A stretch of DNA of 64,000 bases from Onchidella celtica (lineage: Eukaryota; Mollusca; Gastropoda; Systellommatophora; Onchidiidae), in assembly GCA_963931925.1 (NCBI GenBank), contig OZ007571.1:41964779-42028778 (forward strand). The letters run 5' to 3'. A model generated the notes under the pieces. It worked only from the letters and a program-made list of their open reading frames with translations, did not search any database and had not been told where the DNA came from. The position numbers and the translations under genes were made by a program. Below, piece after piece: positions 12,555 through 56,843 of the stretch. Every line of letters begins with the position of its first letter. Within the stretch, counting starts at the first letter, position 1.

Positions 12555-13395
12555 TCATGACTTATGGCTTCTCATGTGACTGATAAGTCCTATTTTTGCC
12601 CTGCAGACCCTTCCGCATAAATGACAAGAGTGCTCCGTTGGTTCAGTACCACTGGGCCTTTTCTTGCGCCGTTCTCTTTTTTTGATAGCCTGCTGGACTC
12701 TGTCAGCTTCCCATGCTTTGCTGCCTCTGGTAAGGGCCGCCCTCCAATTTGCACGACCAAGCGAGAGCTTTTCCCACTCACTCACATCAATGGCAAAGGC
12801 CTTCAGTGATTGCTTGAGAGTGTCTTTGTAACGTCTCTTTGGGGCCCCAACATTCCTCGTTCCATTGGAGAGCTCAGAGAAGAAGATTTGCTTCGGGAGT
12901 CTGGAGTCGGGCATTCTGACAACATGTCCTGCCCAACGTAGCTGAATTTTTTTCAGGTGGCAGAAGATGCTCAATTCCTTGGCACGATTGAGGACCTCAG
13001 TGTCTGGAATTTTATCCTGCCATTTGATCCTTAGGATCTTTCTAAGGCAGGCCAGATGAAAGTGATTTAGCTTTCTGGCATGCGATTGGTACACTGTCCA
13101 GGTTTCAGCCCCATAGAGTAGGGTGGGAAGGACCACAGCATTGTACACTTTCAGCTTAGTGTCTGTGCGAATGCCGGCGACATCCCACACTCTCTTTCGA
13201 AGCCTGCCAAATGCAGAGCTGGCTTTGCTGATTCTTGAGAGAATTTCAGTATCAACACGAGCCGCGGAAGACAGTGTACTGCCAAGATAGGTGAAGTTCT
13301 CCGACACCTTCAGAAGACTGTCATGGACTTTGATATTTGGGGTCACAGGATACTTGTCGTCTGGAGTAGGCTGATGGAGCCCAGTCGTAGTACAT
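12555..13395 (-). pseudogene. 5'-truncated non-LTR retrotransposon ORF2, C-terminal part
   Basis: About 275 residues open to a natural stop at 12,555 match the region after the catalytic core of LINE reverse transcriptases. Visible are the FTYLGSTLS block, LLYGAETWT, LRKILRIKWQDKIPD, a RWAGHVVRM block, KRRYKDTLK, and a C-terminal zinc-knuckle-like CX2C...HX3H. The YADD catalytic motif is absent because the copy is truncated near 13,395, where similarity stops upstream of HQPTPDD. The architecture (GHV-RM block plus terminal Cys/His finger) is typical of several animal LINE clades in the RTE/CR1/Ingi range; the exact family is not certain. It is a dead insertion with no link to the neighbouring genes. 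Confidence 0.85.
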
Positions 13396-17743: not shown

Positions 17744-17829
17744 GCAGACAAACAGTGATTGAATTTTTTTTTGCCTGCAGGATCAATCCCATACGGGGCC
17801 CCGGCCACATCTCGTGCGGTTTCACATCG

Positions 17830-17895
17830 CTAGACCAATACCGCGCAGCAAGTCTAAGCTCCTCCCACCAAGCGTGCGGGTCCAGGTATAAAGGT
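17830..17895 (+). promoter_or_regulatory. Candidate CCAAT/TATA promoter of HMG-box gene 1
   Basis: CCAAT at 17,835-17,839, a CTCCTCCCACC GC-type word near 17,858, and TATAAA at 17,887-17,892 are spaced like a proximal promoter about 350 bases before the start codon. The same region is conserved in copy B. Alternative: a polypyrimidine tract ending GCCTGCAG just upstream (about 17,767-17,780) could be a splice acceptor, which would make this a 5' untranslated exon instead. Confidence 0.45.
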
Positions 17896-18243
17896 TGCGT
17901 ACCACATGGCTTAACTTCAAATCTTTTTGAGTTTTCTGAGATAGTGAAGGAAGTTTGTTTTTATTCAACTCTAGCTTGTTATCATCGGCAATATTTCTAT
18001 AGCAAGACATCGGACTTCATACTGTCTTAGAATTTTTCATGGATATGAACATTTCCATTGAACATTTCTCCTTTGAAAACCATTGCAGTCGCACTGTTGT
18101 GTATCATGAGACGCCGCTCCACTAGTACAAGTATGGTACATGTATGTTGATGCCAGTGACCTTATAAATAACTGAATCATTTGACACCGCATTGACAGTC
18201 TCAATCTTAATGTTTGAATATTTTTAGGTACTTTGCGCTCATA

Positions 18244-19920
18244 ATGGATTACACCAGTGACGCAGACCCAATGATTTCGGCAGCTTTCATGTCAGACTAT
18301 ATTCCATCCAATTATCAGCAGTTGCAGAGCAATATGAACACAATGGAATTTGAATCTTTCTCGCGTCAAAACCTTTCCCTTGATGGAAATATGGATTTCT
18401 CACTCACCTTGGACAGCCCGGTGTCAGTTGACGCATACTCTGAGTCAGATCTGGAGCTAGGCTTCCGAGATGAAACTAGTGATACATCAGGAACAGACGA
18501 TGAAGTCAGACCTGCCACGCCTCCTGCAACTCCCAAATCCAAGCCAAATTTGAATCTCGTCCAGAAAAAAGAATACAGTGATGAACTTTTTCTAGCTGAC
18601 CGTCGCCTTGTTGACCAAAGATTTGCTCCTTATGACGTGTTCCCGGCCAATAACAACTGGACTTTAGAAGAAAAGGCTGACAAGCTGCTGAAACTAAATC
18701 CCAACACATCATACACCATTGATGACCTATTGAATATTGACGCATTGCCATCACCCAATGAAAAAGTAGATATGTTGATAGACATAGTAGCAAGGATTCA
18801 TACTAGCTTCCCGTGGAACCACGTCGAGCCCGAGGAACTCAATAGAGCATATACCAGTGTGGCCAAATGCAAAAAGGACAAAAAGAAAGATGCCAATGGC
18901 AAGCAAGCTCCTAAGCGACCGATGAACGCATTTATGATTTGGTCTAAAAAATGTCGCACTTTGATTGCCCAGTTTGCTCCTCAGCTCCACAATGCTGTCA
19001 TCAGTTATAAATTGGGCCACATGTGGAGAGAATTCACTGATGCGGAAAAGGGTAGATATGAGAGAGAAAAAGAGAGACTGCAGTTGTTCCATGCTAAAGA
19101 ATACCCCGATTACAAGTACAGACCACAAAAGAAGCCCACCAAGAAAACCGAGCCAAAATCCTCCACTGCATCTCAGAAGACTAAAGCCAAGTCTAACAAG
19201 AAGAAGAAACAGACGTCCACCGTAACCAGTTCTGTGCCTGGCAGCGCCATTAGTCAGGCAGTGGCAGGAAGCAATCTAAGTCCAAAGCTAAAAGCAAGAC
19301 TTCAAGTCAAAATAGACTCTGAGTTGAGAAGGGGAATTGGAAAACGCTCTACTGGCATAGACATCGCCGACTTAACAGCATACCCACAACACGAACTCGT
19401 TACTTCTGTTGAGGAAACCCCTATAAAAATTGAAGCAGGTGATCACAAAACTGTTCATTTCGTCATTGACAGCGGTCCTTCATCTGTGTTTGACACACCA
19501 GGCAATTCACCACACACACCGATAACGCCTACAGATGACTCAAATGTCACTGGAACCACAACCATGAACATTTTTACATTTGATGATAAATCGTTCCAGA
19601 TGTCGCTTGAACAGAATAACAATGTTTTACCGGCTGTTTCTTGCTTTTCCCCTGTGCAAATCAAGACAGAACCAGCAGATGTATACCAGTGCATATATTC
19701 TACCGCTGACATGAAGACTGAGCCACAGGAAAATCTGTTGCCAGCAGAGAGTAACCAGGAACTACCAGTTCTGACAGCTGAAACGGTAGAAAGTTATTTT
19801 GGGAGCGACAGGAATGAGGATTTGAATGACATAATGTCACTGCTCACCTATGCAGGAGATATTCCATTGGGGTTACCACAGTTACCACTAGTCGAAACCG
19901 AGGGACCTGCCTCTGTCTGA
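18244..19920 (+). CDS. Sox-like HMG-box transcription factor, copy 1
   Basis: A single uninterrupted coding exon of 558 residues; nuclear DNA-binding role is inferred from the family. The HMG box (about residues 223-292) carries the Sox signature RPMNAFM followed by IWSKK, HNAVIS, a KLGHMW block, DAEKGRY and the closing PDYKYRP. Residues about 106-214 form a module I do not recognise that is also in copy 2. A lysine-rich stretch (about 295-325) is a likely nuclear localisation signal. The acidic C-terminal half has three SUMO-type motifs: IKIE (394-397), IKTEP (473-477) and MKTEP (490-494). A TPPATP motif near residue 95 fits proline-directed phosphorylation. The ATG at 18,244 is chosen because the frame closes at 18,208 and a TTTTTAG acceptor-like site lies at 18,221-18,227, so a 5' intron is possible. 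Its exact Sox subgroup is not assignable; the box is divergent. Confidence 0.88.
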   Translation: MDYTSDADPMISAAFMSDYIPSNYQQLQSNMNTMEFESFSRQNLSLDGNMDFSLTLDSPVSVDAYSESDLELGFRDETSDTSGTDDEVRPATPPATPKSKPNLNLVQKKEYSDELFLADRRLVDQRFAPYDVFPANNNWTLEEKADKLLKLNPNTSYTIDDLLNIDALPSPNEKVDMLIDIVARIHTSFPWNHVEPEELNRAYTSVAKCKKDKKKDANGKQAPKRPMNAFMIWSKKCRTLIAQFAPQLHNAVISYKLGHMWREFTDAEKGRYEREKERLQLFHAKEYPDYKYRPQKKPTKKTEPKSSTASQKTKAKSNKKKKQTSTVTSSVPGSAISQAVAGSNLSPKLKARLQVKIDSELRRGIGKRSTGIDIADLTAYPQHELVTSVEETPIKIEAGDHKTVHFVIDSGPSSVFDTPGNSPHTPITPTDDSNVTGTTTMNIFTFDDKSFQMSLEQNNNVLPAVSCFSPVQIKTEPADVYQCIYSTADMKTEPQENLLPAESNQELPVLTAETVESYFGSDRNEDLNDIMSLLTYAGDIPLGLPQLPLVETEGPASV

Positions 19921-22759
19921 CTTAGAGTAACCTATTGAGAACTTTCATCTTTAGAACACCATCGTGATCGTACATGCATGATTATCCTTCCATTTAGATT
20001 AAGCCCAGGCAGAGCCCTGACTCTCCACTGCCCAGATCATTATGATATTTTTGTCCAGAGACACGCAAATATATGCTGTAGTTTTCACTTTGATTTCAAG
20101 ATTGTGTTCCACCGCCAGTTATGAAAATAGGCTACCTTCGGACAATCTTTAGTCAATGACTGTTGACACTGTGTTGAATCTTTGATGTCACTCAAGGACA
20201 ATGTCACAACGCATTTATCGCCACTTAAATCTTCGTTTTATACTGCCCTTTTACATGAACTGTAGCACCGCCATCCAGGACAAATCATGACCTACTTAAC
20301 TATCCACTCATTCCATTAGCTACATTGTGAATGGGCGCTTTATACTTCCTCTCATCACGAAAATAATGATTCGTCCAAAGATGAGGGCAACGGCAGCAGC
20401 TCCGTGACTGAAGTTACCAAGTATCCCTCCCGGCAGTTGTATCAAAACTCCGTCCTTCACCGGCATCTATATTCACCTCGCTGCTGGATAAGATACAACT
20501 CATCCTCACCACACCGCAGCTCAACAAAAGCTCACCCACCAGCAGATTGCATATCATGTATGCCCACATCAGTTTACTTCCAGCGTCACTTCAAGGCGCT
20601 TTAAATAATTAACAGTGACATCATCTTCGTGACGTGTGACCCGTGTTCCAAGACCATAAAGTCATTTATTCAAAGACAAACTTTCTCTGGACATTCATAT
20701 TATCCTACAGAAGTGAAGTTTTAACTTTTGTAAAGACTATTTGCCAAGCAAAGGACTGAATGAATTCATGGCAATTCATCTGGGGACACTATCATTGTGG
20801 ACAACGACGATTCCTCGCTCAATGAGCAACTCCTTGCTCTAATATCTGAGGTAACATTTTCTCTTGTACATGTACAAATATTACAATAATATATGTATCA
20901 CCTCTGAACGTCTTAAAACACATGTCTTACTGATAATCATTGATGGGCTTACAAATACCATTCTCCTTTAGATAAATGATTTTTGCTCACAAATGAACAT
21001 TCACTTTAAATTTAAAATTCGAGTGTGTAGAATCTTGTAGGGAAAGCGATGTGTCACTTTTTTTTTTTTTTTTTGCTAATTTACTGCCAAAATAGAACAA
21101 TACTAAAGAAAGAAAGAAATGAAAACTATGATGACAGGGTTAAAGCTCGGTACAATGCAAGATTTTCACATTCCTCTGTAAATGACAGTAATACCTGCAT
21201 CATTTTCGTAGGCAACCAAATGGCCCTTGGACATGTTATTTAAGGCATTGCGTGTCTGAAATAGTGTTCACTTATCTAGTAATTCCTCCATAAACTTTTG
21301 CCTTGTCAGTTTGAGAATGTATCTTGATGGCTGCTTTTATGTACATACTGCATTGTGTCCGTGGAGGAAGAAGCAATTTTGACCACGATAATGAACTATA
21401 TTTTTGAGTTTCATCCAGTTTTGTCTCCTTATTGTGTACATGTTTATCGTTGAATGATCAGATTAACCTGGTTTTACCCTTAATGCATTCGTGCATTCGT
21501 GTCAGGGTTTGTAGCTGGCTCAAAGGTCGTGTTCTTCTTTTTTTTTTAAATTTATTTCCAGTAGCCAGTAGCGTAGCGGTCATTCAATTCAAAAGCAACC
21601 AATTCGAAACTTAGTCTTACAAAATATGCAAACAGCTTATTCTAGGATTTGATTTCAGTTACTGAATAAAGTAATTAAGTCTTTGATAACATCAAAACGG
21701 AGAAGTTTCAATTCTGTAATATTAAAATTGTGGTGGAGCCGATCTTGTGTGATATAAAAAAGTTTTTATAAAATATTTGACCAAGTCTGTGTTGAAACTT
21801 GTGTGATACAACTTGGTTGCTTGGAATTCACAAAAAGTACCCTTGTGAAATGAATGGTTTACACATTCTATCGCAAAGCTGTGTGCAATTCGGAGGAATA
21901 TAAATATTTACAAACAAACAGAAAAAAACAAATGGCTAGTGCTTGAATTTATCATTTGATACATCATTGTCATGAACTACCCGTCGACTTTGAAGTATGA
22001 AGTGATAAACGCCCATTTATCAACTGTTATAATATTATTTATTTTATTTATTTGGACGAAGATGCTTTGATGGTTCTGAAACCGTAAAATGGACTGTGAA
22101 ACACTGTAGTTAACTCCACAGTATAATCAGACCTAAATCACGTCAGTCCATTCCCATAATTTATCAAAGCGCATTCTTATTTTTGCGTCTTACGAAGACA
22201 CTGTGAAAAAGAATTGAATTTCCTTCCTTCATTTCCGTATTTATGTTCAAAGCTATCTCTTGCGTAAGAAAATATTTTAGTCCTGACGAGGTTATTTCTT
22301 AAACAAAAAATACAATGGGTAAAACGTCCGAGTGAAAACCCACAAGATGTAACTACCGGTACCTTGTGACAACACCCATTTCTGTTGTGAAGTGAGAATA
22401 TTGCACGGATGAAAGTGAGAGTGAAAACCGACCATTTGGAACAAATGAAGGTGGACAAAACAATTAAAAAAAATAAAAAAAAGAGAGAATACAAGAGCAT
22501 GGGCATGCAAAACTCAAGAGACTTTGGTCACCATGTTGTTCTTGTACTCGTACAGGCTACCTGCCATCATTCTCTGCAAAAATAAACGTCTAAATGAGCA
22601 GAATGTGCAGATTCTCATGTGCAGCTCCTAAAATTCATTGCATAAATTATGGAAAGATTAACCCATTCAGCCTGGAAGACAACGGAACACTTTGTGACAG
22701 TCATCTTGAATGCATTCTGCCCAGCCTGTTGCCACGATTCTCAGAGAAAGACAGAGGAA

Positions 22760-22762
<3 letters not shown>

Positions 22763-22816
<54 letters not shown>
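22763..22816. repeat. (GT)n microsatellite
   Basis: A pure GT tract of about 50 bases. Copy B has only a short degenerate GTGTGTGAGTGTG at the same place (about 35,144), so the tract expanded in A or contracted in B. Confidence 0.95.
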
Positions 22817-22821
<5 letters not shown>

Positions 22822-25800
22822 TTGCAATTCTAAAGTATATATCAAATGAGTTTGTGGTGTGATAACTGGGAAAAAATGTTATAAATGATTGTGATTCTGT
22901 TGTTGAACCTTGTTGACCATTAATCTTCTATTTCTTTATCGCATACTAGTGGTCAGTTTGACCTTTGAGTGACCGAAACAGTCGGATGTTTTTTCTGTGT
23001 CTTGCGAATAAGTACAAACATTATTTTCCATAACTTGGCTTGTCCGTATCTCGAGGCTATCAAGCTGTATTAAATAGTACTTTTCTGTAGGCCGTGGAGG
23101 TTACGTCAGATTTGGAGGTTTCACTGCTGTATGTGAGAAATCTGTACATACTGCATTGGCGAAAGCCATATTCTGTGCGTGTCCCGTTTGACATAAATAT
23201 TCAATGTTCGTTGTGTCATGGGTCAGTGTCAGAGATCTGATTGCTGTGACTGTATTTTTTATCTGATTTTTCAGTTTGTGAGGAAAATTAGTAACGTGAA
23301 CTTGTAAAGTGTGTAAATTACCGAAAAAAGTCTTCATTTTATTTATTTGCGATATGATATTTGCTCACACCATACCGCTTCATCAACTTTTCTTGATTAC
23401 CTAGGGAAATAAAAGAGAACACGACAAATAATCTCGGCCAGCTACATGCTCAGAGCGGAACATTGTGATTTTTCAAAGCCAGGCATTTGTCATTCTTCAT
23501 GCTATGTAAATATTTCCATGTGTATTCATTTTACTTTTGAGATCTTTTATCGTGTAACAAATTCTTTCATCTCTTTGATTGAAGAAGTTGTTTCGCCTGA
23601 ACTACAATTGGTAGTTTGTTTTTGTGTTTTTTATTTTTGAATAGACTAATGATCAGTCATACACTCCAGTCAGGAATATTTAGTCATCACAGTCATCATG
23701 TTATGCTTGTCAGTTCTTTAAAACATCTGATTCTGCTTTTAATCTAAAGACAGTATTAAATGATTGAAGGTAGCACCACCAGAGAAGGGCAATGTGTTGT
23801 TTTGTTCTCTCGACTTAATATGCAACTCCTGCCCCTCATTTTCAATTTCACCCATGGCAGCTTTTTGTAATCTATGTACCTTACAACATTATCATGAAGT
23901 TTCTCAACTGTTCATCAAATGAAATCCTCCTGGCCGTCTATTGATTCAACTTGATAGAGTATTCACATGATCTTTTTATAAACTTTTTAAGTCTTATCTA
24001 CATTTTTACAAACTACAAAAAAAGTTTACATTTTTTGAGAAAGTCAAATTACCAAGTGTAAGCTGATTGTTAGTAGTTACTTTTAACACTTGCAAAAAAG
24101 AATGGCTTGATGTTGGCTCTCGTTCATTCTTGCCAATAAAATTGTCAAGGTCTTTTGTGTAAACAATTTGATTTGGGCATTTTGTTTTTGTGTCCTTTGT
24201 TCATTAATAATCACTATAATCATGAAATCAGTTACATACTTTTCATTCTCAAAATATTTGTGAACAATTAGATGGACCAAATTCATTGAGTTTTATCATC
24301 TTGTAAATATATACATGTGTATAGATATTGTGTCTTTTATCATTTTGTGTAATGAATAGTGTTCGCCTTCAAAGAAAAATGGACAGTTTTGTTATTATGA
24401 AACAGGGGAGCAGCTAAGCAATGAAAACATGTGTTCTTTGACCATAATTCTGACACCTCTCAAATACGAGGCAGCCATTTTTTGCCCTATGAATGATTGC
24501 AAGTTCTATGTGGATTTGAATTATGTTCATATTATTCAGTCATATATAAAATATTGCCCATGTATTGTTTGTAATATTTGTCTTCAAACATTTTGGACGA
24601 AGATCGGAAGCTTTATGTGTGCGAGTCTGCCCGAAAGCCTACTCTGGAATACTCATGCTGTAACAACAGTCTAATATAAATTCGACGTTCCTGGAGAAGG
24701 TGATACCAACAAAATGTCAGTTAAAGTAATATGGTTTGAGCCGTGGGTGAAGTTTTTGTTTCTGATGGTGGATTTACAGAAACTGTGACTGGCTCAGTCC
24801 AAGACGTATTCCAATGTAGTAGGCCTCTATGTTAAAACGTCTCAAACTAAATACACCTATTTGTTAAATCATGTGAGGAAACTGATAGTCGGCTGCACTA
24901 TGACACGTGTAGTATGAGAATTCATTATATATATATCTGCCTTTGAGCTTTTGCTGTAAATATTGCTTAGCGGCCAATGTTGCGACTGGGTGTCCAGGCA
25001 TTGTCATGTTGCCGACACCGCCGTGGCATTTTACAAAGTGGTAGAAATAGAGTCTGGCACAATATACATATATTTCTTATACACCTTTGAACTATTGCTG
25101 TAAAACAAAATGTGTAATATGTATAATGACATTTTCCTTGCTTTTGATTTGTATGAATGCATCTTCATGTACTTTGTGTCCATTCTCTGAATGGAATAAT
25201 CAAAATAATGGGTGAGGTTTTTGTAGAAAGTCATCACTTTCATAGAATAGGAGGAATTTTTTTTTTCTTATTTTTAATTTTCGAAATCTGATACCTGACA
25301 AAAAGTTGAAGAACCCCTCTATTTCAAATTTGATCAAAATTTGTTAAATTGCTTTTCATTGTTAGGACATTCCAAAATCATTATTCAGGCAGCCAGTTGT
25401 CCACTTCAGAACATCAGCCCTTTACTTCTTTACTGTTTACAGATTTTCAGAGTAGTTCGAGTTTAGTGATACACTTTTTATTGTATTAAAACAGAAACTA
25501 GAAGTACAGAAAGTACATGACCCTTTTCTAATCGTGCGATTGGAATCACTGCCCACTGGTGTCTTTCTGATCATCTAATTCATGTTCATTGTCTCCGTTA
25601 TCATCCTGATCATTGTCAAACTACATGATTTAACTTTTTTTTGTATCTTTCCTCTCGTTGCCTTAATCTGCTATCAACTGTTTCTTTCATTCAGCAACTC
25701 TTTCACAAGTATTATCATTATTCCTGTCCAACTATCATAAGAAAATGATGGAATGAAATATATGCAAAGGAACAAAACGGTTTATTCATTCATTGTGTGT

Positions 25801-26896
25801 AAATCCTATGCTCAAACCAAGCAGTGCACATTATATCTTTACAGAAGTTTGCTTTTCTTTTTCTTCATGACAAAACACATTTTTCAATTTATACTGAAGC
25901 CTCTCAAAAATGATTTGTTGTATATACAAAACTTACAAAACAAACAGAAAAAAAAAAAGCCCAAAAGAATGGATAGGACTGTTTGTTTGTTTGTTTGTTT
26001 TTTCGCTTTTTCTTTTGCCATTACACAAAGACTAGCAGTGTCCAAAAAATTTTGAAGATGTTGACATGAAATGTTTATGATTATGCTGTTTTGATGTTAA
26101 CCTCCAAGTTGAACAAATTACTGTTATGCCTAAATTCAGTAAAAAGCCATTCCATTTCTTGAACGAAGTCAAGTCTTTCCTACACAAAAACATATTTTTC
26201 TACGCCTATATTTTTTTTTCTTAAAGATGAACAGGAATTTGTCTCTTTGCATCATGTTTTTATTAGTTTTAGAATGAGCAGAAACGATAATTGTGTTCAG
26301 TTAATGTCTTGGATTAAATGTGACAATTTCACATCTATGCGACTCTTATTGAGCAAAAGCCACTCTCTATCATACATATATATATACATGTGTTCAGTTT
26401 ACTTTTATTATTTTAGAATTGATAGATTTAAGAAAGAAACAATCCGATTTTTACTTTAAAAACTTTACTCTCTGTTTTTCTTTTTGCTTAATTTAAAAAG
26501 TACTTTTTACTGTAATTTGAAAGAGATTTTTAAAGTAACTTACTTTGGGATCATCCTTTTTTCCTGTCACTAAATCATGCTGTGGTTGACTTACTTAGTT
26601 AACATGATCTGTTGTCTTTTTAATGATCTGTCCATCTAACCACAAGGTGAATCATCCAAAAGTCATTTTGTTAACCTAAAGTATTCTCCATGCTTAATTT
26701 TATCGTACTGACCATGAATTGCTGGAATGAAACACATTTTCATCTAATGTGCATTTTGTGCCAGGTTACATGAGCCTGGCATTTTTTATGTTTTTATATT
26801 TTTTGTTGTTTTTTAGTTCAATAAAAAACTGATTAAAAATACAATTGGTTATTATTCTGTATGCTCTGAATGTGTGGTTCCTCTGTGTGTTTGGGT

Positions 26897-26897
<1 letters not shown>

Positions 26898-26937
<40 letters not shown>

Positions 26938-27005
26938 GAGAGGGAGAGAGGAGAGGGAGAGAGAGAGGAGAGAGAGAGAGAGGAGAGAGAGAGAGAGGAG
27001 AGAGG
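26898..27005. repeat. (GA)n-rich microsatellite
   Basis: GA tract interrupted by GGAGAGG units, aligned with the differently organised GA tract at 38,123-38,250 in copy B. Confidence 0.9.
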
Positions 27006-30000
27006 ATAAATTAACTGTAAATGAAGTTTGACAAAAATTCACCTATAGATCAATAAATCTTCATGCCATAATAATTATACTATTTTGGATAGACTATAGA
27101 TTGTATGTCATGTTTGTATAATATCAAAATTTAATTCTGGGATAGTGGCAAAAAGATAACAGATCCCTCCACAGATGAGGAGTTGTATTACAAAGTGAAT
27201 GGACGGTAGTTTGTGGCTTTTATTAAAAAACTGAGGTAACGGAGGTGGTGGATACAACAATCAATGACCGTCTGTTTCATCGTGTCAATCAAATTTTGTC
27301 TCTGAAATTTTTTGGGGGTGATTTTAAATATAAAATGAGCGAATAAAAGAAAGCTTTTAAAAAACAGGAACAAAAAGGAAAACACGTTAAGTAAGGTAAA
27401 GAAGATATATAGAAAATAGGAATGTAGATCACTTGTAGTGTATGTTTATATGCATCAAACACAGACTGATAAAGTACTGAATAGAGCCAGTAATTCTAAT
27501 TGTACGTATACGTCAGTGATTTTAAAAATGGAAGTTTACAACTGGGATATTTTACTACCAGTATGATGATAATGATGGGAATGAAAATGTTGTTCAATCA
27601 TAAAGATGATGATGGTCAAGACAGAAGAAGATGATGGTGATAATGGTTTCAATGATATTTAAATAATAATGGTTACGATGATTTGAAAGTGTTATCAAAT
27701 CAAAGATGTCAATGCCCTCATCTCCTCAGGAGACCAACATTGGACGAGTTTGACGTCTACAAATCGCAGGTGTCAGTCATTTAAAAAGAATTATTAAAGA
27801 GAGAGAGAGGGGGAAAGAGAGAGACAGAGAGACAGAGAGAGAAACAACAATATTGCAGCAGACTTTTCCCTACACAATCGCATCAATTATTTTAATTGGA
27901 CAAATTGGTGGCTATGCTCTCACGTTTACAAAAAAAAAGGAAAAACTGTATGTATCTTTTTGGTGGCGAAAAGTATTGAATAAACTAGGTTTAAAGGGAG
28001 CTAGTTTTTATTTAAAAATAGAAATTTAAGTACATATATTGTGAGGCTATGTGGTTTCCACGCAACGGATTGCACATGCACCTCATGTATTTGAAAAACA
28101 ATAAAAACAATATAAAAACTGTATTAGGGACAAATATTAGAAAGAAACACAAAGAAGCAAACAGCCAGCTCAGAAACTGAGTTGATGAAGCAAAGGAATA
28201 AATTCAAATACAAACAAGACGCAAATAGTCTATATATTATGTGTGTGAATAGAGGTGAGCAATGACAGGGCAAAGATAACAAACAGAATACACTTCAGCT
28301 GTGGAGTCCTAGTAGGGTTTCAAAAAAGTTGAAAACTTATGCACTTTATCAAAATTTCATACAAAGTCACAAATGGATACATACGGATATTAATATTGAA
28401 TTGGACCAAATGACAATAACAAACAAAAACGTTGGGATCAGAAAACAAGACAATCTTAAAGGAAAATAATGAAAAGAGAAACAAAAAGAAATTTAGATAA
28501 TAAAGTAGACAGTGGCGGCAATGAAAACAATAAACCTTTCCAGATAATAGGCCTTGAGTGACATACAGTTGTATTATGAACCGCAGAAAAGAAGAATATG
28601 GAGATAAGAGTAACAGTACTACAATGTATCTCGGTACAGCCCCTGCCTGATGATGAGGAGGACTACGATAATGATGCTGATAACGAACATAACTGTAAAT
28701 GTAATACTGATGGCAGTGTAGCTGATGATTATGATGGCGATAATGAAATTGATTAATAAAAAAATAAAAAGTTAAAGACACTTTGACTTAATTAGGTACT
28801 CTGAAATGAAAGAAATCAGTGTTTGCTTTACTTTATGACAAACACTTGGCACGTCCAGAACATTGAGAAAATAATGCTTAAATTAATGACAATGAATATC
28901 ATTGAGTTTTCAAAGGGTATCTGAGATGGTTTCCTGTGATTTGATAGAGCTGTGTTAAGCTCCAAATCCATCACTTTCTATTCCATCCATGTCTTGAAAT
29001 AAGATATTTGATGGCCCTTCATTATAAGACTACTGAGAGAGAATGAATGAGAGAAGAGTGGAGTGGTGGGAAATGAAGGTGTAGTTAGAAAATTAGATCC
29101 CAACCCCAATCACTCCTCGAATGTCTAGAGATATACATGTAGAAACCCCATTTTCTGAGTTGTTACTGAAACCAATTCATTAAATTATTGTGCAAAAAGC
29201 TAGCTGACATTTGGATGCAATGCAAGATAAAGAGTTTTACTAAATATTACTGGACATGTAAATTAGAAACTTTTCCTTTTATAGATAGATAAAAATGTAT
29301 TTTGTCTTTACTGGCTTTGTAAAATGCAGCACTATTTCCATGTATGACTTTAGCGAATTCGCTGGAAGACGGCGACAAGTGTTCTCTCGTACCTAATATT
29401 ATTGGTGAATGTTAAGAAGCTTAATTCATAATGTTCTGATTTATTGCCTGAGCATTAAGAAAGTGACTAACATCGAATGTTCAGAGATATTTGATTTCTT
29501 TGTGATTACTGATGATCTCTTACGAGTATGCCATGCTAGATCGCTTGGTTTTGTACAATTGTAAGATTTGGCGCGATTGGGAAAACTGGAAACATACTAC
29601 ATTATATATATCTTGAAATGTTCATTAGACATACGACTCTGTGATATGCCTTTCAGTCAACATGTTATAGTGTATGCTTGTTTATTTCTTTGGCTATCGA
29701 GAACTCACCAGACACTAAATCAACGTGAACAGAAACAAGTGCCGCCACGACAAGTTAAAAGCAATGAGAATTTCGCACAATTTGTTCCTTGTACTTGTAA
29801 TATCACTGCCGGATCAGAAACTTTGAATACATAATTCATTGAGATATTGTAAATGAGAATCATAGATAACGTCATTTATTTTGTTGAAAAACAAACAAAA
29901 CAAACAAACCAGCCCAGCCTTCATAACAGTATTTTAAATGAAAACTGTGGGACAGCAGAGAAAAGCCCTTGGTCAAAGGTAAGTAATGCGATAAATAAAC

Positions 30001-31030
30001 CCGATCTGACATACTATGGACGCAAAATCCATTGTCTCTGGAGACTGAAGGAGACAAAACACAAACAATAACAAACAACAGGATGTGTTGTCGAAAACAC
30101 ACATACACACATGGGAAATTCACACATACACACATACAAACGCCACCTCGCTCATGAACTCATGCACACACTTTCTCTAAACAATTCCTGTGAATGTTAA
30201 TGGGAATTGAAAACGATTCATTAGAATGATGCTAATATTTTGTTTGACTTTTTGTTTGTTTGGTGTTTAAAATAGGAACATCTGCCATATGTGAGTGCAG
30301 CTAGTCTCCTCAAAACACGGAGCATATATTGTAGAACTGCACACTCTTCTCATCACTGCGAGAAACGTATTGGCCACAACCCACCGACCTGAATATCAAA
30401 CTCTACGGCGCTCGGCCAGAACTGCAGAAAACCGTAGATTTTCTTAAAAGAACAAATCTGCAGATTTAGATTGGTGAAAGAAAGAAGAAGAAGAAGAAGA
30501 AGTTTGTTTGGTTGTAGCCTATCAAAGTGAGTGAATTATTATGCTGTCCTGTTGATTCCACTTTGTTTGCTATAAGTACATAATACATGCAAGAAGCTAC
30601 AGTGACCGTTTCCAATCATAAAATCAAACAGACATTGTGCTTTTTAAAAATATACTACATGACTGTATCATCTTTCAAAAGTGTGATACATGTATAAGAA
30701 TTTTTACAGAATTAACAATTGATTCACGCTATCCGCCAACGGCCTGCAGTAGGCTACATAACCATTTCTCTATGCAAGCATATAATATGAGCAGTATAGA
30801 TATTTTATGCTATATATATGATTATGTTACCTGTCTGCGTGTGTGTTTGTGCAATCCTGTAGCAAGCTAACTACCATAGAATCGAGCCATCTGCATGACG
30901 TCACTGTGTAGGCTACTTTCAAATTGATTCTATTGTCTAGTTTGTGGCGTAAGATTAATTTCTTTTTTCAATGGAATTTAATGAAATACTTCCTGATCAG
31001 TCTTTTGGTATTCATCCCTTTGATGTTCCG

Positions 31031-31070
31031 AGATACCTAATTTCTGCCAAAGATACCTAATTTCTGCCAA
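31031..31070 (+). repeat. Perfect 20-bp tandem duplication
   Basis: The 20-base unit AGATACCTAATTTCTGCCAA occurs twice in a row in copy A; copy B has it once (about 41,322-41,341). It is therefore a recent duplication in A. Confidence 0.95.
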
Positions 31071-31340
31071 TTATGCTTGTTGCAAGAAAGACGGAATCAA
31101 AAATACATGTATTAAAATGAGCATGAAGGGTCCGGGAGTAAATGGTTAAAGGGACACCACCCAAAATATTATTTCTGTGGCTTCTTCGACAGCATTACTT
31201 CCCATGTATAGAATCAAACTATCAGACGTTACAAAATTTGGAGTTTACGTTTCCCTTGTGAATATTACATCCTAGATTTAATTCGTTCAATCTGTAAAAA
31301 ATCTGTTTTTGTGCGATCCAGGCTCATGTAATACTGAAGA

Positions 31341-32259: not shown

Positions 32260-32262
<3 letters not shown>

Positions 32263-32299
32263 AAAAGTGATTGAAGTTTTGCCAGCAGGACCAATCCCG

Positions 32300-32400
32300 T
32301 GCGGCGCATCGGCCACCCCTCGCGTGGTTTCACATGGCTTGACCAACACCTCGCAGCAATGCTAAGCCCCTCCTACTGAACACGTGGGTCCAGGTATGGG
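32300..32400 (+). promoter_or_regulatory. Promoter-equivalent region of gene 2 with altered TATA and CCAAT
   Basis: Aligns with the gene 1 upstream region. The copy A words GACCAATACC and GGTATAAAGG are GACCAACACC and GGTATGGGTT here, so both the CCAAT and the TATA match are lost. The GC-type word and GGTCCAGGTAT are kept. A separate upstream GACCAATCCC near 32,289 still holds a CCAAT. The gene may use another start or be weakly expressed. Confidence 0.45.
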
Positions 32401-32489
32401 TTTAACTACACTCGCTATGACTTTTCTGATACAGAGAAGGAAAGCAAGACAGCAAGACCCTAGTCTGCAGCATTAAGGTTCAGACAACC

Positions 32490-33977
32490 ATGAATACAAG
32501 TGAATTCGAATCGTTCTCGCTGGATGAAACTAGTGCTACATCAATAACAGCCTTTGAAGTCAGACCTGACACGCCACCTGTAACGCCCAAATATCACCTT
32601 GATTCGACACTTGTCCAGAAAAAAGAAGATAGTGATGAACTTTTTCTAGCTGACCGTCGCCTTGTTGACCAAAGATTTGCTCCTTATGACGTGTTCCCTG
32701 CCAATAACAACTGGACTATAGAAGAAAAAGCTGCCAAGTTGCTGAAACTAAATCCCGACACATCATACACCATTGGTGACCTATTGAATATTGACGCATT
32801 GCCATCAGCCAATGAAAAATTGGATATGTTGATAGACATAGTAGCAAGAGTTGACACTAGCTTCCCGTGGAATCACGTCGAGCCCCAGGAACTCCATAGA
32901 GCATATACCAGTGTGGCCAGAAGCAAAAAACCTAAAAAAGGTGTCAACGGGAAGGAAGCTATAAAAAGGCCATTAAATGGCTTCATGATTTGGTCTAAAA
33001 AATGCCGAAATTTAATTGCACAATTTGTCCCAATTCTTAACAATGCTGTCATCAGTTCTAAATTGGGCCAGAGATGGAGAGAATTCACGGACGCTGAAAA
33101 AGGGAGATATGACACAGAAAAAGACAGACTGCAGTTATTCCATACTAAACAATATCCACATTACAAATTCCAACCGCAAAAGAAGCCTACCAAGAAAACA
33201 GAGCCAAAATCCTCCACTGGATCTCAGGAGACTAAATCTAAGTCGAACAAGAAGAGAAAACAGACATCTACTGTAACCAGTTGTGTGGCTGGCAGCGCCA
33301 TTGGCATTAGTCAGGCAGTAACAGGAAGCGATCTAAGACCAAAGCTAAAAGCAAGACTTCAAGTCAAAATAGACTCTGAGTTGAGAAGGGAAATTGGCCA
33401 ACGCTCAATTGGCATAGACATCGCCGAATTAACAGCATACCCACAAAACGGGGATATTCCTATGTCTGTTGAAACACATAGGAAAATTGAAGCAGATAAT
33501 CACAAAACTGTTCCACTCACCATTGACAGCCGTCCAGCATTTGTATCTCAATACAATTCACCACATATGCCGATAACGCCTACAGATGACTCAAGTGTCA
33601 CTGAAACCACAACCATGAACACGTTCACCTTTGATGATGAATCATTCCTGACGTCTCCTGAACAGAATAGCATTGATTTAGCAGCTGTTTCTTGCTTTTC
33701 CCCTGTGCAAATTAGGTCGAAACCATCAGATGTAAACCAGTGCACATATTCTACCTCCGACATGAAGATTGAGCCCCAGGAACATCACTTGGCCGAGAGT
33801 AAGCAGCAGACACCAATTCTACCAGTTCTAACACTTGAAACGTTAGAAAGTTATTTTGGAAGCGACAGGAATGAGGATTTGAATAACATAATGCCACTGC
33901 TCACCTATACAGGAGATATTTCATTGGAGTTACCACAGTTACCACGAGGCGAAACAGCGAGACCTGCCTCAGTCTGA
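32490..33977 (+). CDS. Sox-like HMG-box transcription factor, copy 2
   Basis: Intact 495-residue frame paralogous to the gene at 18,244. The start aligns with an internal Met of copy 1 (MNTMEFESFS against MNTSEFESFS), so about 30 N-terminal residues of copy 1 are absent, and a further stretch of about 34 residues is missing in frame just after it. The shared N-terminal module is residues 42-150 and the HMG box about 158-227. Signature residues differ: RPMNAFM is RPLNGFM, LHNAVIS is LNNAVIS and PDYKYRP is PHYKFQP. Of the three SUMO-type motifs only MKIE (425-428) is intact; the others read RKIE (331-334) and IRSKP (408-412). The frame has no stop or frameshift, which argues for recent function. 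Binding specificity may differ from copy 1; this is inference. Confidence 0.85.
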   Translation: MNTSEFESFSLDETSATSITAFEVRPDTPPVTPKYHLDSTLVQKKEDSDELFLADRRLVDQRFAPYDVFPANNNWTIEEKAAKLLKLNPDTSYTIGDLLNIDALPSANEKLDMLIDIVARVDTSFPWNHVEPQELHRAYTSVARSKKPKKGVNGKEAIKRPLNGFMIWSKKCRNLIAQFVPILNNAVISSKLGQRWREFTDAEKGRYDTEKDRLQLFHTKQYPHYKFQPQKKPTKKTEPKSSTGSQETKSKSNKKRKQTSTVTSCVAGSAIGISQAVTGSDLRPKLKARLQVKIDSELRREIGQRSIGIDIAELTAYPQNGDIPMSVETHRKIEADNHKTVPLTIDSRPAFVSQYNSPHMPITPTDDSSVTETTTMNTFTFDDESFLTSPEQNSIDLAAVSCFSPVQIRSKPSDVNQCTYSTSDMKIEPQEHHLAESKQQTPILPVLTLETLESYFGSDRNEDLNNIMPLLTYTGDISLELPQLPRGETARPASV

Positions 33978-34469
33978 CTTAAAGTATTGAAAGCTCATCT
34001 TCAGAACATCATCGTGATCGTGCATGCATGATTATCCTTCTATTTAGATTGAGCCCATTCATTAACAATGACATCATCCTAGTGAAGTGTGATCTGTGTT
34101 CCAAGACGATAAAGTCATTTATTCAAAGACATACTTCCTCTGGACATTCATATTGTTATACAATAGTGAAGTTATGTAAAGACTATTTGTTTAGCAAAGG
34201 ACTGAATAAATTCATGGCAATTCATATTGGGACACCTTCATCATGGACAACGAACGATTCTACATTCTGGCATCTCAGGTAACATTAATTTTTCTCTTGT
34301 ATATGTACAAAAGTAAATAATAATATATACATGTATGTATCACATTTGAATGTCCTAAAACACAGCCATGTCTTATTGATAGCGAATTGCTGATTCGCAG
34401 ACGTCTGCGATTAAGTTCCTGATCTTATTCGCAGATGGGGGTTTCTTGGTTTTGTCGTGTATACTATGG

Positions 34470-34573
34470 AAGAGTTCCCCCAGCCTATAGGGGTCTGCGT
34501 AATGCAATGTCTAGGGTCTGCGGCTATCAGTCGGACACTATGGGTTCGAAACCCAGCCGGAGCCTTTTTTTTT
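34470..34573 (+). other. tRNA-like / SINE-like fragment with B box
   Basis: GGGTTCGAAACCC at 34,542-34,554 is a perfect T-arm stem-loop and pol III B-box word, and a T run (34,565-34,573) follows like a pol III terminator. The acceptor and anticodon arms do not fold cleanly by eye, so a functional tRNA is unlikely. It lies in the part of copy B that replaces 1.25 kb of copy A. Confidence 0.4.
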
Positions 34574-35987
34574 AAAAACCTGGTAGTAGTACTGCTCATT
34601 ATTGGGAACCAAGAACTGAATTTCTTTCCTTCATTTCTGTATTTATTTTTCAAAGCTATCTCTTGCGTGAGGAAATATTTTAGTCCTGACAAGATTATTT
34701 CTTAAAGACACTGGACAAAATTCACTGGTTTAAACATTTAAGTGAAAACCCACAAGAATTAACTATTTCGTGACAACGCCCATTTCTGTTGTGAGAAGGG
34801 AATGCATGGCTGAAAGTGAGAGTGAAAACAGACACGTTGAAACAAATGAAGGTGGAAAAAAAATAAATAAAAAAGATAATGCAAGAACGTGGGCATGCAA
34901 AACTCAAGAGATCTGGGTCACCATGTTGTTCCTGTACTCTGGTTCTTGGCATCATTCTCTGCAAAAACCTAACGCCTCACAGAGCAGAATTGCAGATTCT
35001 CATGTGCAGCTCCTAACACTCATTGAATTGTTTATGGGAAGGCTAATCCATTCAGTCCGGAAGACAAGGGAACACTTTGTGACAGTCATCTTGAATGCAT
35101 TCTGCCCAGCCTGTTGCCACAATTCTCAGAGAAAGTGGAAGGGAGTGTGTGAGTGTGTTTGACTGTGGGTATTTGCATCTATAAAGTATATCAAATGAGT
35201 TTTGTGCTGTGATAACTGGGCAAAAATGTTATAAATGATTGTGATTCAATTGTTGAACCTTGTTGACCGTTAATCTTCTATTTCGTTATCATATACTAGT
35301 GGTCAGTTTGACCTTTGAGTGACCGAAACAGTCAGATGTAAGTTTTTCTGTGTCTTGCGAATACGTACAAACATTAGTTTCCATAACTTGGTTTGTCCGT
35401 ATCTCGAAGCGTATCAAGCTGTATTAAATAGTACTTTTCTGTAGGCCGTGGAGGTTACGTCAGATTTGGAGGTTTCACTGCTGTATGTGAGGAATCTGTA
35501 CATACTGCACTGGCGAAAGCCATATTCTGTGCATGTCCCGTTTGACATAATTATTCAATCTTAGCTGTGTCATGGGTCAGTGTCAGAGATGTGATTGCTG
35601 TGATCGTATTTTTATCTAATTTTTCACTTTGTGAGGAAAATTAGTAACGTGGACTTGTAAGTGTGTAAATTACCGAAAAAAGTCTTCATTTTACTTATAT
35701 GCGTTATGATATTTACTCACACTATACCGCTTCATCAGCTTTTCTTGATTAACATCTAGGGAAGTAACCTAGAATACCACAAATAATCTCGAGCGGCTAC
35801 ATGCCCAAAACGAAACATTGTGATTTTTCAAAGCCTAGCATTAATGTGTCATTCTTTACGCTATGTAAATACTTTCATGCTCATTTTACTGTTGAGATTT
35901 TTTATCCTATAACAAGTTCTTTCATCTCGTTAACGGGAAACGTCATTTCGCCTGAACTACAAGTGGTAGTTTGTTTTTGTGTGTCTT

Positions 35988-36019
<32 letters not shown>

Positions 36020-38122
36020 AATATTTATAGTCACCACAGACATCATGTTATGTTTATCGGTTCTTTAAACCATTCGATACTGCTTTTAATATAAAGACAG
36101 TATTAAAATGATTGAAGGTAGCACCCCAGTGCGGGGTAATGATTGTTTTGTCTTGTTCCCCCGACTTAATATGCAAACTCTTGCCGCTCATTCTCGGTTT
36201 CACCCTTGACAGATTTTTGTAATCTATGTACCTCACAACATTATCGTGAAGTTTCTCAACTGTTCATCAAATGAAATCCTCCTGCCCGATTATTGATTCA
36301 GTTTGATAGAGTATTCACTATTGTTGCTGTAAAACAAAATGTGTAATATGTATAATGACATTTTCCTTGCTTTTGATTTGTATGAATGCATCTTCATGTA
36401 CTTTGTTTTCATTCTCTGAATGGAATAATCAAAATAATGGGTGAGGTTTTCGTAGAAAGTCATCACTTTCATAGAATAGGAGGAATTTTTTTTTTCTTAT
36501 CTTTAGTTTTCGAAATCTGATACCTGACAAAAAGTTGAAGAACCCCTCTATTTCAAATTTGATCAAAATTTGTTAAATTGCTTTTCATTGTTAGGACATT
36601 CCAAAATCATTATTCAGGCAGCCAATTGTCCACTTCAGAACATCAGCCCTTTACTTCTTTACTGTTTACAGATTTTCAGAGTAGTTCGAGTTTAGTCATT
36701 CGCTTTTTATTGTATTAAAACAAAAACTAGAAGTACAGAAAGTACATGACCCTTTTCTAATCGTGCGATTGGAATCACTGCCCACTGGTGTCTTTCTGAT
36801 CATCTAATTCATGTTCATTGTCTCCGTTATCATCCTGATCATTGTCAAACTACATGATTTAACTTTTTTTTGTATCTTTCCTCTCGTTGCCTTAATCTGC
36901 TATCAACTGTTTCTTTCATTCAGCAACTCTTTCACAAGTATTATCATTATTCCTGTCCAACTATCATAAGAAAATGATGGAATGAAATATATGCAAAGGA
37001 ACAAAACGGTTTATTCATTCATTGTGTGTAAATCCTATGCTCAAACCAAGCAGTGCACAACATTATATCTTTACAGAAGTTTGCTTTTCTTTTTCTTCAT
37101 GACAAAACACATTTTGGAATTTATACTGAAGCCTCTCAAAAACGATTTGTTGTATATACAAAACTTACAGAAAAAAAGCCCAAAAGAATGGATAGGACTG
37201 TTTGTTTGTTTGTTTGTTTTTTCGCTTTTTCTTTTGCCATTACACAGAGACTAGCAGTGTCAAAAACATTTTGAAGATGTTGACATGAAATGTTTATGAT
37301 TATGCTGTTTTGATGTTAACCTCCAAGTTGAACAAATTACTGTTATGCCTAAATTCAGTAAAAAGCCATTCCATTTCTTGAACGAAGTCAAGTCTTTCCT
37401 ACACAAAAACATATTTTTCTACGCCTATATTTTTTTTTTCTTAAAGATGAACAGGAATTTGTCTCTTTGCATCATGTTTTTATTACAGTTTTAGAATGAG
37501 CAGAAACGATAATTGTGTTCAGTTAATGTCTTGGATTAAATGTGACAATTTCACATCTATGCGACTCTTATTGAGCAAAAGCCACTCTCTATCATACATA
37601 TATATATACATGTGTTCAGTTTACTTTTATTATTTTAGAACTGATAGATTTAAGAAAGAAACAATCCGATTTTTACTTTAAAAACTTTACTCTCTGTTTT
37701 TCTTTTTGCTTAATTTAAAAAAGTACTTTTTACTGTAATTTGAAAGAGATTTTTAAAGTAACTTACTTTGGGATCATCCTTTTTTCCTGTCACCAAATCA
37801 TGTTGTGGTTGACTTAGACTTACTTAGTGACCATGATTCTGTTGTCTTTTTAATGATCTGTCCATCTAACCACAAGGTGAATCATCCAAAAGTCATTTTG
37901 TTAACCTAAAGTATTCTCCACGCTTAATTTTATCGTACTGACCATGAATTGCTGGAATGAAACACATTTTCATCTAATGTGCATTTTGTATCAGGTTACA
38001 TGAGACTGGTATTTTTTGTGTTTTTATATTTTTTTGTTGTTTTTCAGTACAATAAAAAAACTGATTAAAAATACAATTGGTTGTTATTCTGTATGTTCTG
38101 AATGTGTGGTTCCTCTGGGTGA

Positions 38123-38130
38123 AAGAGAGA

Positions 38131-38161
<31 letters not shown>

Positions 38162-38211
38162 GGAGAGAGAGACAGAGAGAGAGAGAGAGTGAGAGAGAGA
38201 CAGAGAGAGAG

Positions 38212-38250
<39 letters not shown>
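38123..38250. repeat. (GA)n-rich microsatellite
   Basis: GA tract with GAGACAGA interruptions and a short CACACA insert, orthologous in position to 26,898-27,005. Confidence 0.95.
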
Positions 38251-38252
<2 letters not shown>

Positions 38253-41200
38253 CTAAATGAAGTTTGACCAAAATTCACCTATAGATCAATAAATCTTCAT
38301 GCTATCATAATTATACTATTTGGGATACACTGTAGATTGTAGGTCATGTTCGTATAATGTCAAAATTTAATTCTGGTACAGTGGCAAAAACATAGAAGAT
38401 CCCTCCACAGATGAGGAGTTGTATTACAAAGTGAATGGACGGTAGTTTGTGGCTTTTATTAAAAAACTGAGGTAACGGAGGTGGTGGATACAACAATTAA
38501 CGACCGTCTGTTTCATCGTGTCAATCAAATTTTGTCTCTGAAATTTTTTGGGGTGATTTTAAATATAAAATGAGAAAATAAAAGAAAGCTTTTAAAAAAC
38601 AAAAACAAAACAAAACAAAAAAGAAAATGACTAACATACATTAAGTAAGGTAAAGAAGATATATAGAAAATAGGAATGTAGACCACTTGAATGTTTATGC
38701 ATCAAACACAGACTGATAAAGTACTGAATAGAGCCAGTAATTCTAATTGTACGTATCCATCAGTGATTTTAAAAATTGCAGTTTACAACTGGGATATTTT
38801 ACTACCAATATGATGATAATGATGGGAATGAAAATGTTGTTTAGTCATGAAGATGATGATGGTCAAGACAGAAGAAGATGATGGTGATGATGGTTTCAAT
38901 GATATTTAAATAATAATGGTTACGGTAATTTGGAAGTGTTATCAAATCAAAGATGTCAATGCCCTCATCTCCTCATCTCCTCAGGAGACCAACACTAGAC
39001 GAGTTTGACGTCTACAAATCGCAGGTGTCAGTCATAAACCTTTCAGACATGAAACACAATAACTGGAAATGCTTCACTAACTATGTGGCATCAATACAAA
39101 CATCAAAATAAAATAGCGTGCCCTTGCTCAGCCTTTTATCTGGGTTAATGATTTAGAAGCCCAGATGAATTTAATGATCATCGCCATGATTTTGATAACA
39201 TTGTCATCTCGATCACGGCTAATGCTGTTTGGCTGCAGTGATAATGCAACCGACAAAGGGAAGGATAAAGGGACAACTCTATATATACGATCATACTGAA
39301 ATGTCTTTTTGAAGATTTCTGTCCTACAGTGCGAGGCAAACACAACAGTCTAGTCCCTCAGCAGATTACTTTTTTCAGATTTTCCTCTAAGAGTTAAGAC
39401 CTGTCTCTGTGTCTTTGAAACTGGGGAAGAGACCACGGAAACCATTATTGAAATGTATTCAGTGCTTGATGGACAGAAAAATAAAAGATGATTGTGATTA
39501 CATCAGCAAAGTTTTCAGCCAAAGTCACATGACTGTAAGTGAAAGCCAAGATACCACAGTCATGTAGATCTATGCCATAAGATGTGATAGTCCCTACTTC
39601 TGGCCTCTAAAAATAATGCATACAATTTGCTTGCTGATCGAGAGATAGACGAATGCCACATTTCATGTAAAGTAGGCCCCTATTCTTAATATTATGATCA
39701 ATTACAAATGATGTTTGTTACAGTGCTATCGCAACTATACTACAAATTCTCAGTTTTCCTGCACTGATTAAAATTATATTTCTTTCTTTTGTTCTTTTTT
39801 TTTAAATAGGCTGCTCCAGTCACGGTCTACGATGAAAACTATACAGTGAACAAAATGTATTTTGTCTTTACTGGCATTGTAAAATGCACCAGTATTTACA
39901 TGTATGACTTTAGTGCATTCGCCGGAAGACGGCGACAAGTGTTTTCTCGTATCTAATATTATTGGTGAATGTTAAGAAGCTTAAGTCATAATGTTCCTGT
40001 TTATTGCTTGAGCATTAAGAAAGTGATTAGAATCGAATGTTCCGAGATATTTGATTTCTTTGTGATTACTGATGATCTCTTACGAGTATGCCATGCTAGA
40101 TCGCTTGGTTTTGTACAATTGTAAGATTTGGCGCGATTGGGAAAACTAGAAACATAAAATACATTGTATGTATCTTGAAATGTTCATTAAACATACGGCT
40201 CTGTGATATGCCTTTCAGTCAACATGTTATATTGTATGCTTGTTTATTTCTTTGGCTATCGAGAACTCACCAGACACTAAATCAACGTGAACAGAAACAG
40301 TGCCGCCACGACAAGTTAAAAACAATGAGAATTTTGCACAATTTGTTCCTCGTACTTGTAATATCACTTGCCGAATCAGAAACTTTGAATACATAATTCA
40401 TTAGGATATTGTAAATGAGAATCATAGATAACGTCATTTATTTTGTTGAAAAACAAACAAAACAAACAAACCAGCCCAGCCTTCATAACAGTATTTTAAA
40501 TGAAAACTGTGGGACAGCAGAGAAAAGCCCTTGGTCAAAGGTAAGTAATGCGATAAATAAACCCGATCTGACATACTATGGACGCAAAATCCATTGTCTC
40601 TGGAGACTGAAGGAGACAAAACACAAACAATAACAAACAACAGGATGTGTTGTCGAAAACACACATACACACATGGGAAATTCACACATACACACATACA
40701 AACGCCACCTCGCTCATGAACTCATACGCACACTTTCTCTAAACAATTCCTGTGAATGTTAATGGGACTTGAAAACGATTCATTAGAATGATGCTAATAT
40801 TTTGTTTGACACTTTGTTTGGTTGTAGCCTATCAAAGTGTGTGAATTATTATGCTGTCCTGTTGATTCCACTTGGTTTTCTACAAGCACTCGTACATATA
40901 CCTGCAAGAAGCTATAGTGACCGTTTCCAATCATAAAATCAAAGAGAAATGGTGCTCTTTTAAAATATACTACATGTATCATCTTCCAAATGTGTGATAC
41001 AAGAGTCACTACAGAATTAACCATTGATTCATGCTATCCGCCAACGGCCTGCAGTACATAACCATTTTTCTATGCATGTATATGTATGAGCAGTATAGAT
41101 CTATATAAATAATTATGTTACCTGTCTGCGTGTGTGTGTGTCCAATCCTGTAGCAAGCTAAGTACCATAGTATCCAGCCATCTGCATGACGTCACTGTGT

Positions 41201-41516
41201 AGGGCTACTTTCAAATTGATTCTATTGTCTAGTTTGTGGCGTAAGGTTAATTTCTTTTTTCAATGAAATTGGACGAAATACTTTCTGATCAGTCTTTCCG
41301 TATTCATCCCTTTGATGTTCCGAGATACCTAATTTCTGCCAATTATGCTTGTTGCAAGAACGACAGAATGAAAACGCGTGACATGTATTAAAATGAGTAT
41401 GAGGGGTCAGTGAGTAAATGGTTAAAGGGACACCACCCAAGATATAATTTCTGTGGCTTCTTTGACAGAATTACTTCCCATATATAGAATCAAACTATCA
41501 GACGTTACAAAATTTG

Positions 41517-49236: not shown

Positions 49237-49244
49237 ATGATTCT

Positions 49245-52289: not shown

Positions 52290-52842
52290 TTCTCCCTGCT
52301 CTATCGATTCTATATAACTATTATATAACGGTTTTTTTTAAGAGCCGCCAAAACACCTTATAAAAACAAGACGAAAGCCCATCGGATCCGGGAGCTGAGT
52401 CATTATTAAGTCCTTTCAATGCTTTTCCCATTTCCTCCACGCTAATGTCCAGATCACACATTTCCTTGTCTTCCTCAGCTAATCTTTCATACACTAAACC
52501 ATCTAGGAAATTGTCTCATTTATCGCCCACCACCGTCACCGATGCTTCTTTAGTGTACAGATTTTTACAATATTTTTGTGTTTCCCGAAGAATATTTAAC
52601 GGTTCCCTTCTTATTTCACCATCCCCATCTTTAACTTGTTTTATTGTATTACATATTCCCCTGGCCTTTTCCAGATTTAAAAAGAATTTGGTGTTTTTTT
52701 CTCCCTCTTCGGTCCATTTCACTCTGGATCTAATTATTGCTCCTTTAGTTTTTGCTAATAGTTCAATTTCTAATTGTTTTTTCATGTTTTCATATTTCTC
52801 CTGCAGTTTTTTTTTTTCACCCGGGAACTGAGCAATAAGCTT

Positions 52843-54454: not shown

Positions 54455-54465
54455 GAGTCAGTAAT

Positions 54466-56812: not shown

Positions 56813-56843
56813 AACATTTCCGGTACTTATCTTTGTCGAGATA

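Follow-up and report, generated by a model that had tools for sequence, protein, structure and literature searches.

Ectopic gene conversion between tandem paralogs is a known process. In two human gene pairs, the red/green opsins at exon 5 and RHCE/RHD at exon 7, a peak of divergence is described together with gene conversion (PMC3924837, PMC3966226). The multi-copy Sry genes of the rat Y chromosome provide a further comparison, their divergence pattern being described as not consistent with gene conversion (PMC1852568). The locus presented here, from the gastropod Onchidella celtica, resembles the opsin and RH pairs in that the duplicates lie in tandem, a large part of their sequence is alike, and the peak of divergence falls on a functional segment. 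What sets it apart is that silent sites are saturated in the peak and that the four copies form two box types; homogenisation of the flanks is partial at most, and selection for difference is a candidate reading. Like rat Sry, it comprises several HMG-box gene copies in one genome for which conversion is considered; unlike rat Sry, a conversion tract is well supported. As in ectopic conversion tracts generally, about 240 bases of near-identity between two copies (B and D) lie in unlike flanks and the tree topology switches, whereas here an older segment, for which no donor was found, lies inside the tract. Among the titles listed in literature searches, which in places covered part of the matches (15 of 32 papers in one, 10 of 410 in another), none describes this gene array; this is not proof of its absence from print.

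The window, meaning the whole stretch of 64,000 nucleotides analysed (C5:41964779-42028778), comes from one assembly of a 1.14 Gb genome and contains two of the copies. Codons are numbered throughout as in copy A. The main features are as follows.

18244 to 19920, plus strand: copy A, SOX-like HMG-box gene, single open frame, 558 aa, box type 1
32490 to 33977, plus strand: copy B, tandem paralog of A, single open frame, 495 aa, with A-like flanks and a C/D-like type 2 box segment
18910 to 19116, plus strand: Pfam HMG box of copy A
32961 to 33167, plus strand: Pfam HMG box of copy B
18556 to 18864, plus strand: upstream module of copy A, codons 105-207
32610 to 32918, plus strand: upstream module of copy B
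17749 to 31240: first tandem duplication unit, carrying copy A
32261 to 41516: second tandem duplication unit, carrying copy B

Copy B is without 64 of the first 74 codons of copy A. The search of the genome for other HMG boxes closer to copy B, which the original prediction had proposed, yielded copies C and D with B-like boxes (C5:42034850 and C5:42044554). Each is a single open frame; both lie beyond the window, 37-47 kb downstream of B, with their HMG boxes (C5:42035294 and C5:42044998) 6.5 and 16 kb past the end of the window. The array is thus made up of at least four predicted tandem SOX-like genes (A to D). C and D seem to start at an inner methionine, as B does. A fifth gene, E (C5:52861946-52864045), lies approximately 10.8 Mb from the array; it encodes 700 aa in one open frame and has the same order as the array genes, with the upstream module followed by the HMG box. 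Of the four copies A is the closest to E, scoring 117 bits in a protein search against 92-93 bits for B, C and D, and the N-terminus of A resembles that of E. By eye, the stretch in C and D that matches the N-terminus of A, directly upstream of their open frames, contains in-frame stops.

All five genes match Pfam PF00505 above cut-off. The array is like the SOX family in its HMG box and in that the best solved (PDB) box matches are SOX proteins among the genes compared, namely SOX-11 for A and B and SOX-2 for E. The SOX motif is RPMNAFMVW, and as a rule a protein is counted in the family when its box is about 50% identical to those of known SOX proteins. A and E contain RPMNAFMIW, and box identity to the genome's own SoxB-like gene, linker columns included, is 38/90 for A and 31/90 for B. 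Unlike the SOX family, the array has single long open frames, the motif RPLNGFMIW in type 2 (B, C and D) and an upstream module without a Pfam match above cut-off; DUF6258 was matched by the module at an E-value of 0.2. The product is regarded as a putative SOX-like DNA-binding protein. Searches of this genome, which scored the best candidates, matched the module only in E and the array, and these genes possibly represent a lineage-restricted SOX subfamily.

Blocks of the second duplication unit are 77-86% identical to the first, except for 36324-39035 and 39852-40824 (94-96%). Along the first unit, identity between the two is 82.7% at 22209-23966, 94.0% at 25095-27780 and 95.8% at 29292-30262. 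The aligned blocks of the downstream halves (25095-30262 and 36324-40824) are 94-96% identical, against roughly 77-84% for the gene-bearing half; in the second unit the identity changes abruptly between 36318 and 36324. The high identity of the downstream halves may reflect either recent homogenisation or a nested younger duplication. The C and D units are 92% identical across 5.6 kb and their gene segments differ by 0-3%. In the noncoding DNA beside the genes the distance is 0.26-0.30 for A-C and A-D, and for A-B it is 0.36 (205 aligned bases) and 0.33 (405), not below A-C, in short alignments that may include misaligned ends. The intergenic DNA of A and B is closer than that beside the genes (0.14 at 22209-23966 and 0.04 at 25095-27780). 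Because A-B noncoding DNA beside the genes is no lower in distance than A-C, the grouping of A with B rests on the coding flanks and the intergenic DNA.

Further along the window, 43789-63147 contains colinear, diverged (70-85% identical) pieces of the duplication unit, which large insertions separate and which include no HMG gene. A pair of inverted repeats, each about 230 bases long and 97% identical (56860-57091 and 61990-62220), flank a 784-aa open frame at 59095-61449, which we take to resemble a Mutator-type transposase, with an OTU-like frame beside it at 58635-59042; 56860-62220 is perhaps a fairly intact DNA transposon. The minus-strand frames at 51017-53379 and 12555-13346 resemble non-LTR retrotransposon remains and may represent such.

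When A and B are aligned by codon (490 codons, dS by NG86), a real silent-site island stands out. Codons 208-303 (95 aligned) have 24 amino-acid and 28 synonymous changes, with a dS of 1.18, against 11 and 6 in the 103 codons of the upstream module (dS 0.14) and a dS of 0.20 in codons 331-558. A codon model gives similar A-B values of 1.25 in 208-303, 0.13 in the module and 0.22 in 367-558. An unguided scan picks out codons 211-302, where 28/66 same-residue codons are silently changed compared with 32/296 elsewhere, and this peak was reached by 0/300 shuffles and by 0/500 in a second run. Silent divergence is hence non-uniform along the alignment, uniformity being rejected by the scans. The strong divergence of the HMG box claimed at the outset, silent sites included, is borne out by the Pfam box (16 amino-acid and 21 synonymous codon changes in 69 codons). 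The same is true of the scarcity of silent changes in the module, for which only silent changes had been given. The island had also been placed exactly over the box, and this does not hold, as the A-B peak at codons 208-248 is narrower than the box and the boundaries do not follow the domain exactly. The lysine-rich stretch that follows (304-330), described as similar again, is so only in part (dS 0.41).

With all four copies included, the island resolves into pieces whose coordinates within the window are given below.

32895 to 33134, plus strand: conversion tract in copy B common to copy D, codons 200-280, 2 base differences in 240
18865 to 18987, plus strand: deep tract in copy A, codons 208-248, basic linker and first third of the HMG box
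32919 to 33038, plus strand: deep segment in copy B, type 2, with no silent difference from D (0/37 same-residue codons)
19084 to 19152, plus strand: second, weaker high-divergence piece in A, codons 281-303
33135 to 33203, plus strand: second, weaker high-divergence piece in B

Silent changes per same-residue codon, in the order 208-248, 249-280, 281-303, module and non-module background, are 16/26, 5/24, 7/18, 6/89 and 26/205 for A-B; 15/27, 4/23, 8/16, 4/88 and 28/166 for A-C; 16/26, 4/23, 8/18, 5/91 and 30/169 for A-D; 1/36, 0/30, 9/14, 4/88 and 30/123 for B-C; 0/37, 0/30, 9/16, 5/88 and 30/125 for B-D; and 1/37, 0/31, 1/21, 3/94 and 3/248 for C-D.

B and D are nearly identical in codons 200-280. 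Their two base differences are in codons 247 and 266, and no silent change occurs in the 67 same-residue codons of 208-280, compared with 30/125 in the non-module flanks. The longest B-D matching run covers 36 polymorphic sites (codons 200-247) and was reached by 0/5000 shuffles (P 0.0002); the test also gives runs for B-C (P 0.0002) and for A-B at codons 347-363 (P 0.002), with 0.015 for C-D. The tree for 200-280 is AC|BD with A on a branch of 0.26, and AB|CD has a p-AU of 0.009 and KH and SH values of 0.096 each. The trees for the N-terminal part, 281-303 and 304-558 are AB|CD, with p-AU values of 6e-9 and 4e-9 for the alternatives in 304-558. In codons 367-558 the commonest site pattern is A=B versus C=D (62/123 polymorphic sites). 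An origin of the B tract through ectopic gene conversion with C/D is well supported by these matches and trees, codons 200-280 of B matching D and the flanks grouping with A. The general idea of a conversion mosaic, put forward in the original prediction, is correct. As to direction, two sites (217 and 246) favour transfer from D to B and one (266) is against it.

Within this tract the deep segment has two forms, type 1 in A and type 2 in B, C and D. Silent divergence of A is saturated versus B and D, and 15 of the 27 same-residue codons are changed in A-C. For A-D the segment exceeds the background (Fisher 8e-6), and the codon model gives a saturated dS in 208-248 compared with 0.10 in the module, 0.25 in 367-558 and 0.44 in the N-terminal part. 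In codons 208-249, 36/39 polymorphic sites set A apart from the other three copies. The edges are sharp, codons 201-207 and 250-254 agreeing in all four copies, and codons 249-280 are ordinary, with A-D silent change at background (4/23). The earlier suggestion that the box had been replaced from another paralog is consequently supported for B, which is C/D-like in 200-280, but does not explain codons 208-248, where A is saturated versus C and D too. A and D also differ at 23/90 residues in the box and 9/100 in the module, the reverse of A and E, which differ at 48/90 in the box and 71/100 in the module. Domain constraint alone would not be expected to give this inversion, but segments of different ages would.

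A keeps M227 and A229, which are common to E, the SoxB-like gene and a third HMG locus; type 2 has neither. Of the 14 positions in 208-249 at which A and D differ, E has the residue of A at 3 and that of D at 1; the corresponding counts are 3 and 0 for SoxB and 2 and 2 for the third locus. These residues weakly suggest that type 2 is the newcomer and A nearer the ancestral state. The low dN/dS of the box (0.12 for A-B and 0.15 for A-D) indicates protein-level constraint during the separation of the types, and both therefore probably encode working DNA-binding domains.

Codons 281-303 behave differently in that A, B and C/D all differ mutually, with 7-9 silent changes in 14-18 codons per pair. 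As the elevation is alike among all of them, a single import is insufficient and more than one event would be needed. In the C-terminal parts (19342-19920 and 33399-33977) dN/dS is 0.86 for A-B and 1.14 for A-D, and the frames remain open; to judge from these ratios, they appear to evolve almost freely.

The upstream module has a dS of 0.09-0.14 for A-B, A-C, A-D, B-C and B-D, and of 0.05 for C-D. Silently changed codons are rarer in the module than in the background for A-C (Fisher 0.005), A-D (0.007), B-C (9e-5) and B-D (3e-4), with no significant deficit for A-B (0.16) or C-D (0.35). The module tree favours AB|CD, AD|BC having a p-AU of 0.37. Since the module is nearly uniform in the array yet fast-changing relative to E, we infer that it was homogenised by conversion among the copies. 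Homogenisation of the flanks, part of the original prediction, is accordingly possible for the module; on the other side, the matching-run test found no significant A-C (P 0.14) or A-D (P 0.18) run, and such homogenisation does not explain codons 208-248.

A Pfam HMG search of the genome listed 25 matches, of which four are the array and E is a fifth gene. The search for a donor of the deep segment was negative: a genome DNA search with the box of B, scoring the best candidates, returned the four array copies only, and protein searches with B and E, scored likewise, returned only A-E, the SoxB-like gene on C14 and a fragment with a stop on C2. Searches of this kind could overlook a donor that is short or degraded. 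E was considered as the donor and is not supported: box identity to E is 42/90 for A and 37/90 for D, and where the residue is the same the codon is identical as well in 12/38 and 12/34 cases. A scan of viral contigs with the module and box of A gave no match.

A conversion mosaic is the reading preferred here, with modest confidence. In it, tandem copies would trade short tracts through ectopic gene conversion, which would have homogenised the module (105-207) across the copies. Type 2 would have arisen when the C/D lineage received a divergent stretch of about 120 bp from a paralog that is either lost or missing from the assembly, and a later conversion, most likely from D, would have brought the type 2 segment into B. 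Import is preferred because the deep segment ends abruptly on both sides and the 3' flank has retained a separate history, and the C/D lineage is preferred as the recipient because A keeps more ancestral residues. Counted against this reading are that no donor was located, that AB|CD inside the tract is not rejected by KH or SH, and the elevation of codons 281-303 and the A-B noncoding distances beside the genes described above. It is also possible, but distinctly less probable, that there was no import and that the two box types were long kept by selection for different DNA binding in a partly homogenised array, the peak then marking the segment under selection. In keeping with such retention, the module varies little between the box types as far as codon 207, where the saturated segment adjoins it, the box dN/dS values given above are low, and the type 2 segment is common to B, C and D and absent from A; the divergence-peak model, as proposed for the opsin and RH genes, likewise predicts more divergence at selected exons (PMC3966226, PMC3924837). 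However, the 3' coding flank is plainly AB|CD, so that much of the locus was not homogenised between A and C/D, and the right edge is sharp at codon 249 without decay, 249-280 being at the A-D background. A further version, in which selection would keep two old DNA-binding cassettes distinct and the tandem SOX-like genes, with their uniform module, would pass them around in blocks of about 120-240 bases, is considered unlikely.

The remaining explanations are less probable still. That only B changed, by taking its box from C/D, with the A-C/D box distance giving the age of the split, would account for the near identity of B and D in 200-280, yet A-D silent change in 208-248 (16/26) is far above both the flanks (30/169) and the noncoding distance of 0.26-0.30; on these comparisons such a replacement is contradicted for 208-248, would suffice for 249-280, and is improbable as an account of the whole. 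A local mutation shower or an assembly chimera might be entertained in an array that is tandem and repeat-rich, but three copies have the type 2 segment, the B tract is a clean 240-base block in unlike flanks, and a dN/dS near 0.12-0.15 is not expected from a shower; this origin is very improbable. Least probable is synonymous constraint or codon bias, by which the flanks would be restrained at silent sites and the box left free. The module is low in all pairs and its homogenisation is not proven, which this explanation could use, but noncoding DNA beside the genes diverges like the flanking silent sites and unlike the box, GC3 in 208-303 (A 0.49, B 0.38) is near that of the rest of the genes (0.39-0.46), and B and D have zero silent changes in 208-280; for the box, constraint or bias of this kind is thereby contradicted. 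Codon use, raised beforehand as a possible cause, is similarly not supported by the direction of change, as the silent changes favour AT in B within the box (18/28) and also outside it (19/32).

The array is a clear example from nature of conversion between tandem copies of an animal regulator gene, in which the part of the protein that binds DNA was moved separately from what surrounds it. Trees of the box and of the rest of the gene disagree, and annotation from the HMG box only would pair B with C/D. Should the unlikely cassette system be true, a copy could change its target preference with its other parts unchanged. If the box types differ in binding, exchange of the segment would offer a route to a one-step change of target.
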